Source: Urbifossiella limnaea
Lineage (GTDB): Bacteria; Planctomycetota; Planctomycetia; Gemmatales; Gemmataceae
Direction: 5' to 3'
NCBI RefSeq assembly: GCF_007747215.1
Contig: NZ_CP036273.1
Span: 5,316,322-5,380,321, forward strand
Length of the DNA stretch: 64,000 bases
Below are positions 13,012 to 64,000 of the stretch, piece by piece (within the stretch, counting starts at the first letter, position 1; the number at the start of each line of letters is the position of its first letter). Position numbers and translations under genes: made by a program. The notes under the pieces were generated by a model. It searched no databases. It was not told the origin of the DNA and saw nothing but the letters and a program-made list of their open reading frames with translations.

Positions 13012-14490
13012 ATGACCGACCTTATCGACCTGGTCCACCGGCTCGGCCGCCCGCGCGTGCTGGTGGTCGGCGACGTGATGCTCGACCGCTACGTCTGGGG
13101 CAACGCCGAGCGCATCAGCCAGGAAGCGCCGGTGATCCTGCTGCGCGCCGACCGCCGCGAGGAACGCCTCGGCGGCGCCAGCAGCGTCGCCACCATGCTC
13201 GCCGCGCTCGGCGCCGAGACGAGTCTGGTCGGCGTCGTCGGCCCGGACGCGGACGGCCTCCGTTCGCGGCAGATGCTCTCCGACCTGGGGATCGACGCGG
13301 ACGGCGTTCGCACCGACGCGAACCGGCCGACGACGGTGAAGGAGCGCTACATCGGCCGCGCCCAGGCCAAGCACCCGCAGCAGATGATCCGCGTGGACTA
13401 TGAGGATCGCTCGGCCCTCGACGCCGCCGTGGAGCGTGACCTGGCCGCGGTGCTGGAGGCGAAACTGCGGGCCACCGACATCGTGCTCGTGAGCGACTAC
13501 GACAAGGGCGTCTGCACCCCCGGCCTGCTCCAGAATCTGATCGCCGCCGCGAAGGCCCGCGGGGTGCGGGTGATCGCCGACCCGACCCGCGGCGGCGACT
13601 ACGCCAAGTACCGCGGTTGTGCCTCGATGACGCCGAACCGCCTCGAAGCCGGCCTCGCCGTCGGCCGAACGATCGAAACTCACGCCGACGCGCTGCGGGC
13701 CGCGGCCGACCTGCGCGACCGGCTCGGCCTCGAAGCCGGCATCGTCACACTGGACAAGGACGGCATGGCCCTGGCCCACGGCGACGGGCGTTCCGTCGTG
13801 TTCCCAACCCGGCCGCGGCAGGTGTACGACATCACCGGCGCCGGCGACATGGTGATGGCGACACTGGGCTTGGCCCTCGCCGCCGGCGCCGACTACGACC
13901 CGGCCATCCGCCTGGCGAACGTCGCGGGCGGCCTGGAAGTCGAGAAGATCGGCGTTGCCACGGTCAGCCGCGAGGAGATACTCGCCGACCTGTTCCGCAC
14001 CGCGGAGCGGGCGCCCGGCGCCGGCAAGTCGTTGCCGCTACCGCAGCTACTCACCGAGCTGGACCGCCGGCGGCAAGCCGGCCAGCGAGTCGCCTTCACC
14101 AACGGCTGCTTCGACGTGCTGCACGCCGGCCACGTCCAGTACCTGCACGAGGCCCGGGCGCAGGCCGACTGCCTGGTCGTCGGACTTAACAGCGACGCCA
14201 GCGTCCGACACCTGAAGGGGCCGACGCGCCCGGTGAACGCCGCCGACGCCCGCGCCCTGGTGTTGGCCGGGTTGCAGGACGTGGACTACGTGTGCGTGTT
14301 CGCCGAGGCGACGCCGCTCGCGCTGATTCGTGCCGTGCGGCCGGACGTGCTGGTGAAGGGGGCCGACTACCGCAAGGACGAGGTGGTCGGCGCCGACGTG
14401 GTGGAGGCGGCCGGCGGCCGCGTCCACCTCGCGGGGTTGCGGCCGGGCGTGTCCACGACGACGATCATCGACCGGATGCGGGCCGCGTAA
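13012..14490 (+). CDS. hldE: Bifunctional heptose-7-P kinase / heptose-1-P adenylyltransferase
   Basis: HldE makes ADP-heptose for the lipopolysaccharide inner core. The N-terminal PfkB-type kinase domain (about 1-325) has LVVGDVMLDRYVWG, the GG substrate signature LGGAS and the catalytic block DITGAGDM (Asp279 as general base; Met replaces the more usual Thr next to it). The C-terminal nucleotidyltransferase domain has TNGCFDVLHAGH (HxGH about 371-374) and GLNSDASVRHLKG. Length matches the fused form. An ATG at 13012 is chosen; GTG codons at 13000 and 13003 are alternatives. The D,D-heptose-1,7-bisphosphate phosphatase and the epimerase are not in this window. Confidence 0.93.
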   Translation: MTDLIDLVHRLGRPRVLVVGDVMLDRYVWGNAERISQEAPVILLRADRREERLGGASSVATMLAALGAETSLVGVVGPDADGLRSRQMLSDLGIDADGVRTDANRPTTVKERYIGRAQAKHPQQMIRVDYEDRSALDAAVERDLAAVLEAKLRATDIVLVSDYDKGVCTPGLLQNLIAAAKARGVRVIADPTRGGDYAKYRGCASMTPNRLEAGLAVGRTIETHADALRAAADLRDRLGLEAGIVTLDKDGMALAHGDGRSVVFPTRPRQVYDITGAGDMVMATLGLALAAGADYDPAIRLANVAGGLEVEKIGVATVSREEILADLFRTAERAPGAGKSLPLPQLLTELDRRRQAGQRVAFTNGCFDVLHAGHVQYLHEARAQADCLVVGLNSDASVRHLKGPTRPVNAADARALVLAGLQDVDYVCVFAEATPLALIRAVRPDVLVKGADYRKDEVVGADVVEAAGGRVHLAGLRPGVSTTTIIDRMRAA

Positions 14491-14514
14491 CGAAGTTGGC
14501 TCACGGGTTCACGG

Positions 14515-15585
14515 ATGAACCGGATCGCACTGTTCCTGCCGAACTGGGTCGGCGACGTGGTGATGGCCACGCCGGCGATCCGCGCCGTGCGCGCGGCCTA
14601 CCCCGCCGCCGAGTTGCTGGCGGTGTGCAAGCCCTACGTCGCCGACGTGGTCGCCGGCGCGCCGTGGTTCCGCGACGTGATCCGCTTCGACAAGTCGGGG
14701 CCACGCGACCAACGCTTCTGGGCCGTCGCCCGCCGACTCCGGTCCGAACGAATCGACGCCGCGCTGTTGTTCCCGAACTCCTTCCGCGCGGCACTCCTCG
14801 CCCGGCTCGGCGGCTGCGGCCGCGTCGTCGGCTTCAGCCGCTACGGCCGCGGCTTCCTCCTCAGTCCGCCGAAACTCGACGCGACGACGGAGCGCGGCCG
14901 GTTCGTGCCGACGCCGATCATCGACGACTACAACCGCCTCGCCGTGGCGCTCGGGTCGGCCGACCCCGGCCACCGCATGGAGCTGTTCACGACCCCCGCC
15001 GACGAGGCCACCGCGGACGCGGTGTGGAAGCAGTTCGGCCTCGGGCGGTACGGCCGCGTGGCGCTCTTGAACCCCGGGGCGGCGTTCGGCGCGGCGAAGT
15101 TCTGGCCCGGCGACTCGTTCGCCGCCCTGGCCCGGATGCTGGTGCAGCGCACCGGCGCCGGCGTGCTGGTGCTGTGCGGCCCGGCCGAGCGCGAGCTGGC
15201 CCGCCGCATCGCCGAGACGAGCCGCAGCCCGCACGTCTACTCGCTCGCTGACAATCCCCTGTCACTGGGCCTGACGAAGGCCGTCGTTCGCCGCTCCGAC
15301 CTGCTGGTGACGACGGACAGCGGCCCGCGGCACTTCGCTGCCGCGTTCGACCGGCCGGTGGTGACGATCTTCGGCCCGACGCACCTGGAGTGGACGGAGA
15401 CGTACTTCCCGAAAGCGGTCAACTTGCGGCTGAAGGTGCCGTGCGGGCCGTGTCAGCAGCGCGTCTGCCACCTCGACCACCGCTGCATGACGGGCATCAC
15501 ACCGGACGCGGTGTTCGCCGCCGCGGCCGGGTTGCTGGGTCGATTCCCACTGCCGCTGAGCGCGGAGGTGCGCCGTGCCGCCTAG
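14515..15585 (+). CDS. waaF: ADP-heptose:LPS heptosyltransferase (WaaF-like)
   Basis: A GT9-family transferase that adds heptose to the lipopolysaccharide inner core on the cytoplasmic face. The N-terminus has the typical PNWVGDVVMATPAIRAVRAA. The second Rossmann half carries LNPGAAFGAAKFWP and the sugar-nucleotide pocket TTDSGPRHFAAAF followed by TIFGPTHLEWT. A Cys-rich segment near the end (CGPCQQRVCHLDHRC) is seen in several WaaF proteins and may bind metal. Its C-terminus overlaps the next gene by 11 bases, so translation is coupled. Whether it acts as transferase I or II is not decided by sequence alone; the motifs favour II. Confidence 0.9.
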   Translation: MNRIALFLPNWVGDVVMATPAIRAVRAAYPAAELLAVCKPYVADVVAGAPWFRDVIRFDKSGPRDQRFWAVARRLRSERIDAALLFPNSFRAALLARLGGCGRVVGFSRYGRGFLLSPPKLDATTERGRFVPTPIIDDYNRLAVALGSADPGHRMELFTTPADEATADAVWKQFGLGRYGRVALLNPGAAFGAAKFWPGDSFAALARMLVQRTGAGVLVLCGPAERELARRIAETSRSPHVYSLADNPLSLGLTKAVVRRSDLLVTTDSGPRHFAAAFDRPVVTIFGPTHLEWTETYFPKAVNLRLKVPCGPCQQRVCHLDHRCMTGITPDAVFAAAAGLLGRFPLPLSAEVRRAA

Positions 15586-59675: not shown

Positions 59676-60173
59676 CTACGGGACTGCTAGCCAGCGGTCG
59701 GGGTCGAAGCGGAGAATCGTGACGCCCTCGGGGGCGACGGCTTCCGTCGTGCCGACGACGACGAGCACCGCCACGGCGTACCCGGCGGTACGGTAGCGCG
59801 TCAGAGCCGTCAGGTCGACGGCGAGTGCGTCGGTGTTAGTTCCGCTGACGAAGCACAGGGCCGCGAGCGGGCGGTCGGCGGCGCCGTGTTCGCCGAGCTG
59901 CCAGACGAGTAAATCCGGCTGCCGACCCGGCGGCGGGGCGGGGTCGGGCTGAATGACGACGTGCCCAAGCCCGAGCCGCACCGGCAGCGCCTTGTCCCAC
60001 AGCCGGCGGAACTGGTGGTAGAACTCGCGGACGAACGGCCGCTCGCGCTCCTTGCGGGCGGCCGCGGGGCCGTCGGCGTCGCCCGGCGGGTAGGCGAGCG
60101 CCCCCTTGCCTGCGAAGCGCGGGTGGAGCTGGTTCAGCGCCTCGGTGGCGAGGTCGAGAAACGGGTGGCTCAC
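59676..60173 (-). CDS. Small protein coupled to the C1 enzyme, unknown
   Basis: A 165-residue soluble protein. It has LNQLHPRFAGKGALAYPPGD at the start, FVREFYHQFRRLWDKALP in the middle and beta-strands such as YAVAVLVVVGTTEAV towards the end. The GTG at 60173 overlaps the stop of the upstream gene by four bases (GTGA), so translation is coupled to the C1 enzyme. No family is recognised. The long frame upstream of 60173 is shadow of that gene. Coupling to a C1 gene suggests a related role, but this is inference. Confidence 0.7.
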   Translation of the reverse strand: MSHPFLDLATEALNQLHPRFAGKGALAYPPGDADGPAAARKERERPFVREFYHQFRRLWDKALPVRLGLGHVVIQPDPAPPPGRQPDLLVWQLGEHGAADRPLAALCFVSGTNTDALAVDLTALTRYRTAGYAVAVLVVVGTTEAVAPEGVTILRFDPDRWLAVP

Positions 60174-60868
60174 CCCAGCGCCTCTTTCCACTTCTTGACG
60201 CGGCTCTTGTCGATGACCCCGTCGCGCTTGCCGCCGGCGCACGCCGACCCGCGCACCGCGAAGTAGTCCGGCACCACGCCCTTCAGCTTCGGCAGCTGCT
60301 CCGGCTTCAGCGACCCGCCGACCGCCACCTTGGTGTACACCCGCTTGAGCCCGTCCACCAGCTCCGCCAGCTCGGCCGGCTTGATGAAGTCCAGCAGCGT
60401 CTTGCTGTCCTTCACACACGTGTCGATGAGCACCGCCCGGAAGCGGAACCGCTTGGCGAACTTCGCCACCTCCGCCGGCGGGATCGACTTCGCCCGCTCC
60501 CAGTCGGCGTAGGCCACCGCGACCATCTCCATGCCGGCCGGGAGGCTGCGGCGGGCGTCGAGCAGGTCTTCGCCCCAGCCCGGCGTGTGGGCGTAGCCGG
60601 CGAGCCCCCACTTCACGTAGTCGAGCTTCAACTCCAGGTGCCAGTGCGCTTCCGTCAGTGCGTTCGGCCCCCACTCGCCGAGGGCGGCGCTCACGGGCAC
60701 GCGGCGCTTCACCTTCTCGACGACGGCCCCGACCACCTCCGGCTCGGCGACGCCGAGCGGGCCGCGGGCCGGCTCCTTCACGTCGATCAGGTCGGCGCCG
60801 CCGGCGATGGCGTCGTCCACCTCGTCGGCCGAGCGGACGCTGACGAGCAGACCGGGGGTGTCGGGCAT
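60170..60868 (-). CDS. mfnB: (5-formylfuran-3-yl)methyl phosphate synthase
   Basis: A 232-residue TIM-barrel enzyme that condenses two glyceraldehyde-3-phosphates into the furan precursor of methanofuran. It has LLVSVRSADEVDDAIAGGAD, LIDVKEPARGPLG (catalytic Lys at about residue 31), LKLDYVKWGLAGY and a C-terminal VPDYFAVRGSACAGGKRDGV. These match the archaeal MfnB/DUF556 family, also found in planctomycetes with tetrahydromethanopterin-linked C1 transfer. Other C1 genes are not in this window. ATG at 60868; the next gene overlaps its stop. Confidence 0.9.
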   Translation of the reverse strand: MPDTPGLLVSVRSADEVDDAIAGGADLIDVKEPARGPLGVAEPEVVGAVVEKVKRRVPVSAALGEWGPNALTEAHWHLELKLDYVKWGLAGYAHTPGWGEDLLDARRSLPAGMEMVAVAYADWERAKSIPPAEVAKFAKRFRFRAVLIDTCVKDSKTLLDFIKPAELAELVDGLKRVYTKVAVGGSLKPEQLPKLKGVVPDYFAVRGSACAGGKRDGVIDKSRVKKWKEALG

Positions 60869-60887
60869 GGCGCGAATTCCTTTCGGG

Positions 60888-61331
60888 TCAAAGCCCGGGG
60901 ACGGCCGTCCCCGGGCTTTCGGCGGTGCTGTCCGGCACACGGAAGAACATGGTGAACCCCGGCAGCCGGCGGAACGGCAGCGGCCGGGCGGCTCGGAACT
61001 CAAACCCGTGCAGCCTCGGCGGAGCGAACCAACCGGGGTCGTTCAGGTGCCGGCCGGCGTCCGCGGCGAAGGCGTCGGCCGAGTCGTAGGTCCGGCAGCC
61101 GACCAGTTCCGCCTCGCCGACGATGCCGCCGCGCTGCCGGGCAGCCTCCTCCAATTCCGGGGTGGTCACCTGCTCCCACGCCTGGGGCCGGTCGTCGGGT
61201 ACGAGCCCGGCGTGTATCAGCACCCGGCCGCGGCGACGCGTGGCCCACGTCCGCACCTCCACCAGCTTCACTCCGGCCACGAGCAGGGCGGCCCACGGCT
61301 GTTTCACCGACAGCGCAAAGGCATTGCTCAT
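60888..61331 (-). CDS. ASCH-domain protein
   Basis: A 147-residue protein with the ASCH signature near its start (LSVKQPWAALLVAGVKLVEV, then RTWATRRRGRVLIHAG) and a later GEAELVGCRTY. ASCH domains resemble PUA folds and bind RNA or are linked to coactivators. It is upstream of mfnB on the same strand by 20 bases. The end of the gene overlaps a 30-base perfect palindrome (60890-60919). Confidence 0.83.
   Translation of the reverse strand: MSNAFALSVKQPWAALLVAGVKLVEVRTWATRRRGRVLIHAGLVPDDRPQAWEQVTTPELEEAARQRGGIVGEAELVGCRTYDSADAFAADAGRHLNDPGWFAPPRLHGFEFRAARPLPFRRLPGFTMFFRVPDSTAESPGTAVPGL
60890..60919. repeat. Perfect 30-base palindrome at the ASCH gene end
   Basis: AAAGCCCGGGGACGG (60890-60904) pairs exactly with 60905-60919, with no loop. 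It spans the last codons of the ASCH gene and lies 21 bases before the mfnB start. It may act as an attenuator or terminator between the two genes. Confidence 0.65.
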
Positions 61332-61493: not shown

Positions 61494-64000
61494 ATGGCTG
61501 TCAAGCTGGTCAGCAACGAAGAACCGCTGCCCGGTTACCGGCTCCAGGAGCGGCTCGGCCGCGGCGGGTTCGGCGAGGTGTGGCGCGTCGAGGCACCCGG
61601 CGGTCTCCTCAAGGCCATGAAGTTCGTCTTCGGCGACCTCGACGCCGCCGACGAGGACAGCCGCCCGGCGGAACAGGAGCTCAAGGCGCTCAAGCGCGTC
61701 CAGACCATCCGCCACCCCTACGTCCTGTCGCTCGAGCGGTACGACATCATCGACGGCCAGCTCATGATCGTCATGGAGCTGGCCGACGAGAACCTGTGGG
61801 ACCGGTTCCGCCGGTGCCGCAGCCAGGGCCTCCCGGGCATCCCCCGGGACGAGCTCCTCCGCTACATGGAGGAGACGGCCGAGGCCCTGGACCTGATGAA
61901 CAACCACTACCAGATTCAACACCTGGACGTGAAGCCGCAGAACCTCTTCATCGTGTTCAACCACGTGAAGGTCGGCGACTTCGGCCTCGCCAAGCTGCTC
62001 GAGGGCGTGCGGGCCACGGTGACCGGCGGCGTCACGCCGGTGTACGCCGCGCCCGAGACGTTCGAGGGCTACGTCTCGCGGTTCTCCGACCAGTACAGCC
62101 TCGCCATCGTCTTCCAGGAGCTGCTGACCGGCGCGCGGCCGTTCACCGGGGCGAACACCCGCCAGCTGCTCATGCAGCACCTCAACGGCACCCCGGAGCT
62201 GAACTCGCTGCCGGTCGGCGACCGGGCGGTGATCGCGCGGGCGCTCAGCAAGAAGCCCGATGACCGCTGGCCGAGTTGCTCCGAGATGGTGCGGGCGCTC
62301 AAGAACTCCGGCTTGCCCGCCCCCCCGCAGACGCCGTCCCCGGACCAGACGCCTCGGCGTCGGCCGCCCGACTCCGAGTTGCCGGCGTCCGAGTGGGCGA
62401 CCCGCGTGCAGGTCGGCGGGTCCGGCCGGCTCGGCCACGACGCCGCGGCGAAAGACCCGACACCCGCCCCGCGCCCGACCGGGCCGCTCGGCCCGATGCC
62501 GGGGCTGGTCACCGTCGGCCCTGCGGGGACGGTGGTGCCGCGGCTCGTCACCCCGGGGTCGTCGGCGCTCGGCCCCGCGCCAGCAGTCACGCTCCAGAAG
62601 CCGGACGTCGTGCAGACGCAGTTGATGAACGCGATCGGCCTGGCGCCGCCGGAGAAGGCCGGCGACGGCGTGCTGTTCCCCGCGCTGGTCGTTGCCGTGG
62701 GTGGCATCGGCCGTCAGATCGCCGACCAACTCCGACAGGTGATCGCCGACCGCTACGGGAACACCGACAAGGTGCCGAACATCCGCTTCGTCGCCATCGA
62801 CACTGACCCCGCGGTCGCCGACCAACTGGGCGACGCCGCCAGCACCCGCGGCCTCGTGCTGGCACGGCTCAACCGGTCCGTCCATTACCTACAGCGAGAC
62901 GGCCTCCCGCCGGTCGACCAGTGGCTGCCGCCAGGGGTGCTGTACAAGCTGCCGCGAAGCCCGGTCGCCGCGGCCGGGGTTCGGGCGTTCGGCCGGCTCG
63001 CGCTCGTCGATCACTACAAGGCCATCGCCCAGCGCCTCCGCCAGGAGATCGGCAACTTCCAGACCGACGAGCCGTTGGCGAAGGCCGAGAAGGCGACGCA
63101 GTTGGGCCTCCGCACGAACCGCCCGCGGGCCTACGTCCTCGCCGGCCTCGGCGGCGGCACCGGCGGCGGCATGTTCCTCGACCTGGCGTTCATCATCCGG
63201 CAGGAACTCCGGGCCGTGGGGTACGTCCGGCCCGAGGTCGCCGGCGTGTTCCTGGTGCCGCCGGCGGAGAAGAACGCCCCGCGGACCGCGGCCCTCGGCA
63301 ACACCCACGCCGCGCTCACGGAGCTGTACCACTACCAGGCTCGCAAGACGAAGTACGTCACCACGTTCGACCGGAGCGAGCCGCCGATCCAGGACGGCGA
63401 CGCCCCGTTCGCCCGCGTCGCCGTGCAGGTGCTCCCCAAGGGCGTGGACCCGAAGGGCCGGGCGCTGGCCGCCGGCCGCGCCGCCCGCGCCCTGTTCAAC
63501 GAGATGCTGACGCCCGCCGGCCGCGTCACCGACGAGCTCCGCGACATCCACCGCAACGCCTTCCCGAGTCCGACCCCGGTCTGCCAGTCGTTCGGCCTGT
63601 TCCGGCTGACGTGGCCGCGGCCCGAGGTGCTGTCGGCGGCGACCCGGCGGTTCGCCATGCGGCTGACGAAGCAGTGGGCGGCGAAGGACGCGGGCGGCCT
63701 CAAGGAGCCGATCCGGGCGTGGCTCGACAGCCAGTGGGCCGAGCGGAAGTTGGCATTCGAGCACGTCGTCGAGGCGTTCGAGGCGGCCGCCCGCAACCAC
63801 CTCCGCGAGGAGCCCGAGCGAGTCATCGACGCGTTCATCGACCCGCTCCGCACCCGCACCCCGTCCGGCTCGCGGATGGAGGTCAACGCCGTGCTCCCGG
63901 TCGTCGAGCAACTGCTGGCGATGGTCGGCCGGCCGGACGCCGAGGACGACGCCCAGCGCGGCGTCCTCCACGCCCCGCTGATGGCCCAGTTCGAGAAGTG
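61494..64000 (+). CDS. Ser/Thr kinase fused to tubulin/FtsZ-like domain, cut by window end
   Basis: At least 835 residues, cut off by the window end. The kinase domain (about 14-275) has a glycine loop LGRGGFGEVWRV, Lys43 in KAMKFV, the catalytic loop HLDVKPQNLFI (143-153, Leu instead of Arg) and DFGLAK (from 162). A Pro/Thr-rich linker (about 280-395) follows. The second domain begins with VVAVGGIGRQIADQL, a Rossmann-like GTP-binding start, and reaches GLGGGTGGGMFLDLAFIIRQ (553-559 is GGGTGGG, the phosphate-binding signature of tubulin and FtsZ). This matches the tubulin-like class. It may link kinase signalling to a cytoskeletal filament. Confidence 0.86.
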   Translation, partial: MAVKLVSNEEPLPGYRLQERLGRGGFGEVWRVEAPGGLLKAMKFVFGDLDAADEDSRPAEQELKALKRVQTIRHPYVLSLERYDIIDGQLMIVMELADENLWDRFRRCRSQGLPGIPRDELLRYMEETAEALDLMNNHYQIQHLDVKPQNLFIVFNHVKVGDFGLAKLLEGVRATVTGGVTPVYAAPETFEGYVSRFSDQYSLAIVFQELLTGARPFTGANTRQLLMQHLNGTPELNSLPVGDRAVIARALSKKPDDRWPSCSEMVRALKNSGLPAPPQTPSPDQTPRRRPPDSELPASEWATRVQVGGSGRLGHDAAAKDPTPAPRPTGPLGPMPGLVTVGPAGTVVPRLVTPGSSALGPAPAVTLQKPDVVQTQLMNAIGLAPPEKAGDGVLFPALVVAVGGIGRQIADQLRQVIADRYGNTDKVPNIRFVAIDTDPAVADQLGDAASTRGLVLARLNRSVHYLQRDGLPPVDQWLPPGVLYKLPRSPVAAAGVRAFGRLALVDHYKAIAQRLRQEIGNFQTDEPLAKAEKATQLGLRTNRPRAYVLAGLGGGTGGGMFLDLAFIIRQELRAVGYVRPEVAGVFLVPPAEKNAPRTAALGNTHAALTELYHYQARKTKYVTTFDRSEPPIQDGDAPFARVAVQVLPKGVDPKGRALAAGRAARALFNEMLTPAGRVTDELRDIHRNAFPSPTPVCQSFGLFRLTWPRPEVLSAATRRFAMRLTKQWAAKDAGGLKEPIRAWLDSQWAERKLAFEHVVEAFEAAARNHLREEPERVIDAFIDPLRTRTPSGSRMEVNAVLPVVEQLLAMVGRPDAEDDAQRGVLHAPLMAQFEK

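Follow-up and report, generated by a model that had tools for sequence, protein, structure and literature searches.

What does a protein kinase do when it is built into a relative of tubulin, and could that relative still form a filament? The question is raised by a gene at the end of a stretch of 64,000 nucleotides from Urbifossiella limnaea (contig NZ_CP036273.1, positions 5,316,322 to 5,380,321; the whole stretch is called the window here). The gene encodes a planctomycete FtsZ-like 1 (Tubulin_2) protein carrying an N-terminal Hanks-type Ser/Thr kinase, and structure models suggest that its second half is an apparently complete two-domain tubulin/FtsZ fold, a reading that is new here. The frame opens with an ATG at 61494 on the forward strand and has no stop up to the window end; in the whole genome it runs on to 5381375, which corresponds to window coordinate 65054, and gives a product of 1186 amino acids (full gene L009:4816-8376). 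The original prediction had described one frame joining a kinase to a tubulin/FtsZ-like domain with its C-terminus beyond the window, and this is borne out by the frame and by both Pfam matches: Pkinase (PF00069) covers residues 15-258 (61536..62267, forward strand as for all parts of the gene; E 3e-31, 109 bits against a cut-off of 31.7) and Tubulin_2 (PF13809, "FtsZ-like 1") covers residues 398-724 (62685..63665; E 8e-35, 121 bits against a cut-off of 27). At E values up to 0.001, Pfam finds solely Tubulin_2, Pkinase and PK_Tyr_Ser-Thr in the complete protein; FtsZ_C (PF12327) has no match at that threshold, and classical Tubulin (PF00091) scores 19.9 bits on the window protein, under its cut-off of 33.

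The fusion itself cannot be claimed as novel, since it has been in print since 2010: Makarova & Koonin described a protein kinase at the N-terminus of planctomycete FtsZ-like 1 proteins (PMC2875224), and the same fusion is stated again in PMC9871819 (2023) and PMC11032199 (2024). FtsZl1 is listed for Gemmata massiliana (PMC4672568), while the main text of PMC5147048 is without the terms 'FtsZ-like' and 'FtsZl'. According to PMC11032199, a tubulin-like domain is the commonest partner domain of Planctomycetota kinases confined to the cytoplasm, and the window protein shares its architecture with these Ser/Thr kinases; there they are counted only, and similar architectures are believed to have arisen several times. 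No biochemical work on the fused protein was found among the matches listed from the open-access literature, which leaves out most subscription journals and all bioRxiv preprints; the protein is known, yet apparently without biochemical study.

The first half is very probably an active kinase with the usual catalytic residues. All 67 aligned homologues share K43, E62, H143, D145, K147, N150, D162-F163-G164 and E188, and the HRD motif reads HLD in 66 of them and HMD in one. (The 67 rows remain after two frames shorter than 1000 amino acids were dropped from 69; 11 matches read later are not in these counts.) A scan of the window protein with NCBIfam returned kinase models alone, all far under their cut-offs. 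Between the kinase and the tubulin-like domain lies a linker of residues 259-397 (62268..62684), without a Pfam match and rich in Pro, Ser and Thr as read from the sequence.

The FtsZ-like 1 family was published as a GTP-binding loop followed by a coiled coil and a mostly helical C-terminal part, with an alignment to FtsZ that is reliable only as far as helix H5 and with T6-H7 and a tubulin-like C-terminal domain not identified (PMC2875224). The window protein agrees with this description, and in domain order and phylum as well; our models add a tubulin-like C-terminal domain that is split by an insert. The complete fold was modelled with AlphaFold2 from 55 sequences on the 799-residue part, from the tubulin domain to the end, of an orthologue (locus L106) that is 76% identical to the window protein; the model reaches a mean predicted local distance difference test score (pLDDT) of 92.5 and a predicted template modelling score of 0.82. 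All 50 Protein Data Bank rows listed by Foldseek for this model are titled tubulin, microtubule, cilium, CetZ or FtsZ, save 12dl (cytoplasmic lattice, chain unnamed). VIA-align superposes it on CetZ 3zid with Z 25.7 and a root-mean-square deviation (rmsd) of 3.8 over 297 of 342 residues (model range 5-784), on BtubB with Z 22.5 over 316 of 391 residues (6-799), and on Aquifex FtsZ 2r6r with Z 21.6 over 290 of 323 residues (6-799). Since these rows extend to the last residues of the model, the end of the protein takes part in the fold.

On the simplest reading of the model, the chain begins with the GTPase domain and enters the C-terminal domain with its first strand and helix; a helical insert (model residues 341-712) follows, and the remaining strands and helices (716-781) come after it. 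The helices include 438-465 and two long ones, 470-519 and 527-586, and the helix lengths point to a coiled coil. The C-terminal domain thus seems to be completed by the last ~85 residues of the protein, after a helical, coiled-coil insert of ~370 residues. When positions are transferred by alignment, the predicted insert covers about residues 729-1100 of the window protein, of which the start lies at 63678..64000, and the last predicted beta elements, about residues 1103-1186, lie past the window, up to 65054. The archaeal CetZ proteins 3zid, 4b46 and 4b45 lead the fold comparison (Z 24-26 over about 300 residues), in contrast to a sequence identity of 13-18% and chains of 330-360 residues, which implies that CetZ has neither the kinase nor the ~370-residue insert. 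FtsZ likewise resembles the modelled protein in fold and differs from it in sequence profile. A search of the family profile against the sequences of solved structures found no tubulin, CetZ or FtsZ, the best match being a kinetochore protein at E 0.083, followed by mostly helical chains, and a viral fold search listed phage FtsZ/tubulins first (E 4e-4) and nothing closer.

A second model, of the window's own piece (residues 390-835, without the C-terminus; pLDDT 85.8), gives a comparison for what the end of the protein contributes. Alone, the piece is covered in the fold comparison mainly over the GTPase domain. Its alignment with CetZ2 includes 200 residues (chain 1-226, Z 18.0), compared to 309 (chain 1-341, Z 24.1) for the complete orthologue model, and in blocks 301-310 and 311-320, around the strand near 308-318, the pLDDT is 93 and 94 in the orthologue and 78 and 54 in the window piece. 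The predicted structure was to be compared with FtsZ and tubulin, and a result without a tubulin-like fold was to refute the original prediction; as the models show a tubulin fold, that objection fails.

Several results weigh against a complete tubulin fold, or against a working one. The complete model is that of the orthologue and not of the window gene; its Foldseek E-values are modest (best 1e-4, with template modelling scores by target of 0.29-0.50 among the matches listed), and the sequence identity in the VIA-align rows is 10-18%. Several rows of the window piece also reach chain residues 339-373, the first with an rmsd of 21, so that the rows do not all separate the two models. The T7 catalytic motif of the tubulin/FtsZ superfamily is NxDxxD/E. 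No convincing NxDxxD was found in the window protein; the candidate region, TPAGRVTDELR at residues 673-683 (63510..63542), placed by the orthologue model at the junction of the two helices preceding strand 308-318, is without NxD. Residue 680, its candidate acid, is acidic (D or E) in 54 of the 67 rows and Lys in six of seven non-planctomycete homologues. In addition, a strict GGTG[GS]G pattern for the phosphate loop is missed by 13 of the 45 rows outside the paralogue group described below as clade C.

The phosphate-binding (T4) loop GGGTGGG, on which the original prediction was built, is present at residues 553-559 (63150..63170), with G instead of S/T relative to the published family motif GGGTG(S/T)G. 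A separate N-terminal nucleotide-type start had also been proposed at VVAVGGIGRQIADQL (residues 399-413, 62688..62732); this segment belongs to the tubulin-like domain, of which it forms strand 1, the T1 loop and helix 1. The orthologue model has a strand at 8-13 and a helix at 14-32 in this region, and hhalign to a single E. coli FtsZ puts the segment in the equivalent place, in a weak match (E 7e-4, probability 27, 38 columns). The same alignment places the motif DTD (residues 436-438, 62799..62807) at the position of the FtsZ NTD. G403 and G559 are invariant in the 67 rows, D436 is kept in 66 and D438 in 64. Asn603 (63300..63302), N in 64 of the 67 rows and invariant in two further alignments, A2 (55 rows) and A3 (48 rows), is a candidate guanine contact, which we take to be so by analogy with tubulin N206.

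Loss of the phosphate loop in homologues had been named as a second way to refute the prediction, and here the outcome is divided along paralogue lines. The genome of U. limnaea holds three Tubulin_2 genes, every one a kinase fusion. The window copy belongs to clade A, and the third copy, about 22 kb downstream (L010:7474-11283), belongs to clade C and has a phosphate loop one residue short. Within the window's family, all 17 clade C rows are shortened in the same way, whereas the loop has full length in the other 50 rows, namely five clade C rows from the other family of the order and the 45 outside clade C. Because the short loop is confined to clade C of the window's family, the deletion is probably a derived feature that has been retained in one paralogue. 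The loop is thus shortened in one group of homologues, and the window copy and its nearest relatives keep it in full.

The fusion is a regular property of these genes. In a survey of 41 genomes (U. limnaea and 40 relatives), Tubulin_2 occurs in 34 genomes with 80 matches, and a kinase lies in the same frame for 77 of them (68/69 in a first set, 9/11 in a second); the other three frames start at a contig edge, among them L213 and L219 from the set of 11. In a named-genome set, 66 of 76 loci were examined (omitted were L118, L126, L157, L158, L161, L162 and L164, partial or at a contig edge, and L176, L178 and L180), and all 58 planctomycete loci are fused (56 by kinase motif, two by Pfam); A2 and A3 are selections from these loci. 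As some of the 58 come from genomes of the survey, the two sets are not independent. All eight cyanobacterial or armatimonad FtsZ-like 1 loci examined are without a kinase-sized stretch ahead of the tubulin part. The FtsZl1 proteins of cyanobacteria and Armatimonadota (L169, L170, L172-L180) share with the fused family the Tubulin_2 domain and an alignable C-terminal part, and differ in that the kinase profile of the fused family found no kinase in these 11 loci at E up to 1e-5. In a sample of 294 genomes from the phylum, Tubulin_2 matches occur in 25, and in 22 of these they exceed the cut-off. The 26 loci L181-L206 include 21 that match the family profile, 16 of them fused; the five unfused ones are L181, which starts at a contig edge, L182 and L206 (one genome) and L184 outside the class, and L185 inside it. 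On a quick kinase tree of 97 rows (86 fused), in which long branches are present, two changes are needed to explain the fused label, and the fusion may have a single origin.

Taken together, the best explanation as a whole is a GTP-binding tubulin-fold protein that forms head-to-tail filaments and carries a built-in kinase, a reading that could prove right or wrong with about equal ease. The tubulin-like domain would bind GTP and assemble head-to-tail into filaments or small arrays, from which the ~370-residue insert would stick out. Assembly would cluster the kinase domains through the flexible Pro-rich linker, and the clustered kinases would act on one another, on the linker or on partners bound to the protein; the polymer may then change its state in response to phosphorylation. 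The three copies probably cooperate, as clade A and clade B genes are often arranged in tandem in related genomes, and we speculate that clade C, whose phosphate loop is short, handles nucleotide differently and serves as a partner or cap.

The nearest rival, a possible explanation to which we give clearly less credit, is a signalling scaffold controlled by nucleotide and without filaments, in which a GTP- or GDP-binding monomer or small oligomer switches the attached kinase. The lack of a clear T7 motif speaks for it, as do the clade C proteins: their T4 loop is shortened and their kinase residues are retained, so that the kinase appears to persist where nucleotide handling is no longer canonical. 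Makarova & Koonin also allow, as the less likely case, that the family does not form filaments (PMC2875224). Against the scaffold stand the apparently complete tubulin-type fold of the models, including the C-terminal domain, and the long predicted coiled-coil insert together with the tandem paralogues, none of which is proof of polymers.

A more specific version of the filament reading takes in the chromosome, and we consider it unlikely: in the FtsZ-less members of the window's family, paired A and B proteins would form a kinase-bearing tubulin-type filament that works with chromosome organisation, and the C paralogue would be a partner or cap that does not exchange. Clade A and clade B genes stand in tandem in several related genomes, and in seven (L045, L049, L069, L074, L084, L136, L164) scpA lies right after the clade B gene, its tblastn match beginning at a distance of between -16 and 76 bases; ScpA is verified by Pfam in five (L049, L069, L084, L136, L045) and the other two rest on tblastn. 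L132, L137 and L145 repeat the contigs of L069, L084 and L074 and are left out of the seven, and there are two looser cases (L130, gap 864; L146, gap 194). A wider count speaks against a general linkage: 42 rows have the clade B profile as their best match and 1000 bases or more of sequence downstream, and scpA follows in only 10 of them; the 42 contain repeat entries for one genome and also 12 distant rows scoring below 400 bits. No scpA lies beside the window copy, the genome's own being about 200 kb off; since the gene is located elsewhere in most relatives too, the link to clade B is not general, and we use it for the chromosome-organisation reading only.

It is quite improbable that the protein belongs to a biological conflict (anti-phage) system of the GTPase/tubulin type. 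Such systems combine tubulin-like proteins with GTPases, some also with kinases (Kaur et al. 2020, PMC7159879), and behind the clade B copy of U. limnaea lie genes for two GTPases, one of the DUF697 type and one dynamin/HSR1-like (L011:12259-13443 and 13552-15126). The window kinase partially matches an antiphage kinase model, as it does other kinase models, at 97 bits against a cut-off of 460. The same study, though, limits the tubulin theme to firmicutes and actinobacteria; PADLOC matched the adjacent GTPases weakly and, in the two copies searched, nothing in the tubulin-like part. By the DO-GTPase/GAP1 criterion, no GTPase was recognised beside the window copy, and the two GTPases of clade B were not assigned to the DO-GTPases. 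A conserved operon with GTPases was considered and rejected, as tblastn found those of clade B nowhere else among the 139 loci searched. The presence of the family in 34 of 41 genomes and of its clades in several genera looks more like housekeeping than patchy defence.

The least probable idea, that the family replaces FtsZ in the division of FtsZ-less bacteria, draws on profile searches in which FtsZ_C is found in one of the 41 genomes, and in which U. limnaea has no FtsZ_C and no PF00091 match and its three Tubulin_2 genes are the sole tubulin-superfamily genes found, and it is very unlikely because seven of the 40 relatives have neither family, including one from the window's own family (Gemmataceae) estimated to be 100% complete, Tubulin_2 has the sparse distribution in the phylum given above, and FtsZ-like 1 occurs without a kinase in cyanobacteria and typically alongside FtsZ (PMC2875224). 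The sole FtsZ_C match (G030:C335:170-445, L044) is a 223-residue frame near a contig end and perhaps contamination.

No conserved operon was found for the window copy. Divergently upstream lie an ASCH-domain gene (60888-61331, reverse strand; the label was confirmed by domain search) and a 4HFCP_synth gene (60170-61003, reverse strand). At many clade A loci at least one of the two is again found upstream, and this recurrence looks like plain synteny; downstream, the genes are on the opposite strand. Of the vWA, GTPase and OmpA genes that often adjoin FtsZ-like 1, the gene calls show none clearly next to the window copy, most neighbours not having been profiled. Convergent to the third paralogue is a frame of 1118 amino acids without a Pfam match (L010:11503-14859, reverse strand). 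In two genomes from other families of the class, FHA-EAL proteins are encoded near kinase-tubulin genes (L082:5778-6896 and L103:7062-8267); FHA is a phosphothreonine reader. In two genomes of one family, a gene for a ParA-type ATPase lies upstream of the fusion (L086:7737-8588 and L101:13346-14137).

If the protein polymerises, the kinase would be an integral part of the filament, which would provide a direct route from the cytoskeleton to signalling. A complete tubulin fold split by a coiled-coil insert, as the models predict, weakens a stated ground for doubting tubulin-like filaments in this family, and it offers residues to mutate. In U. limnaea, where no FtsZ is seen, the kinase-tubulin genes are the only relatives of tubulin found. 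Should the chromosome-organisation reading be true, they would represent a bacterial cytoskeleton for which chromosome segregation is either what it signals on or what switches it.

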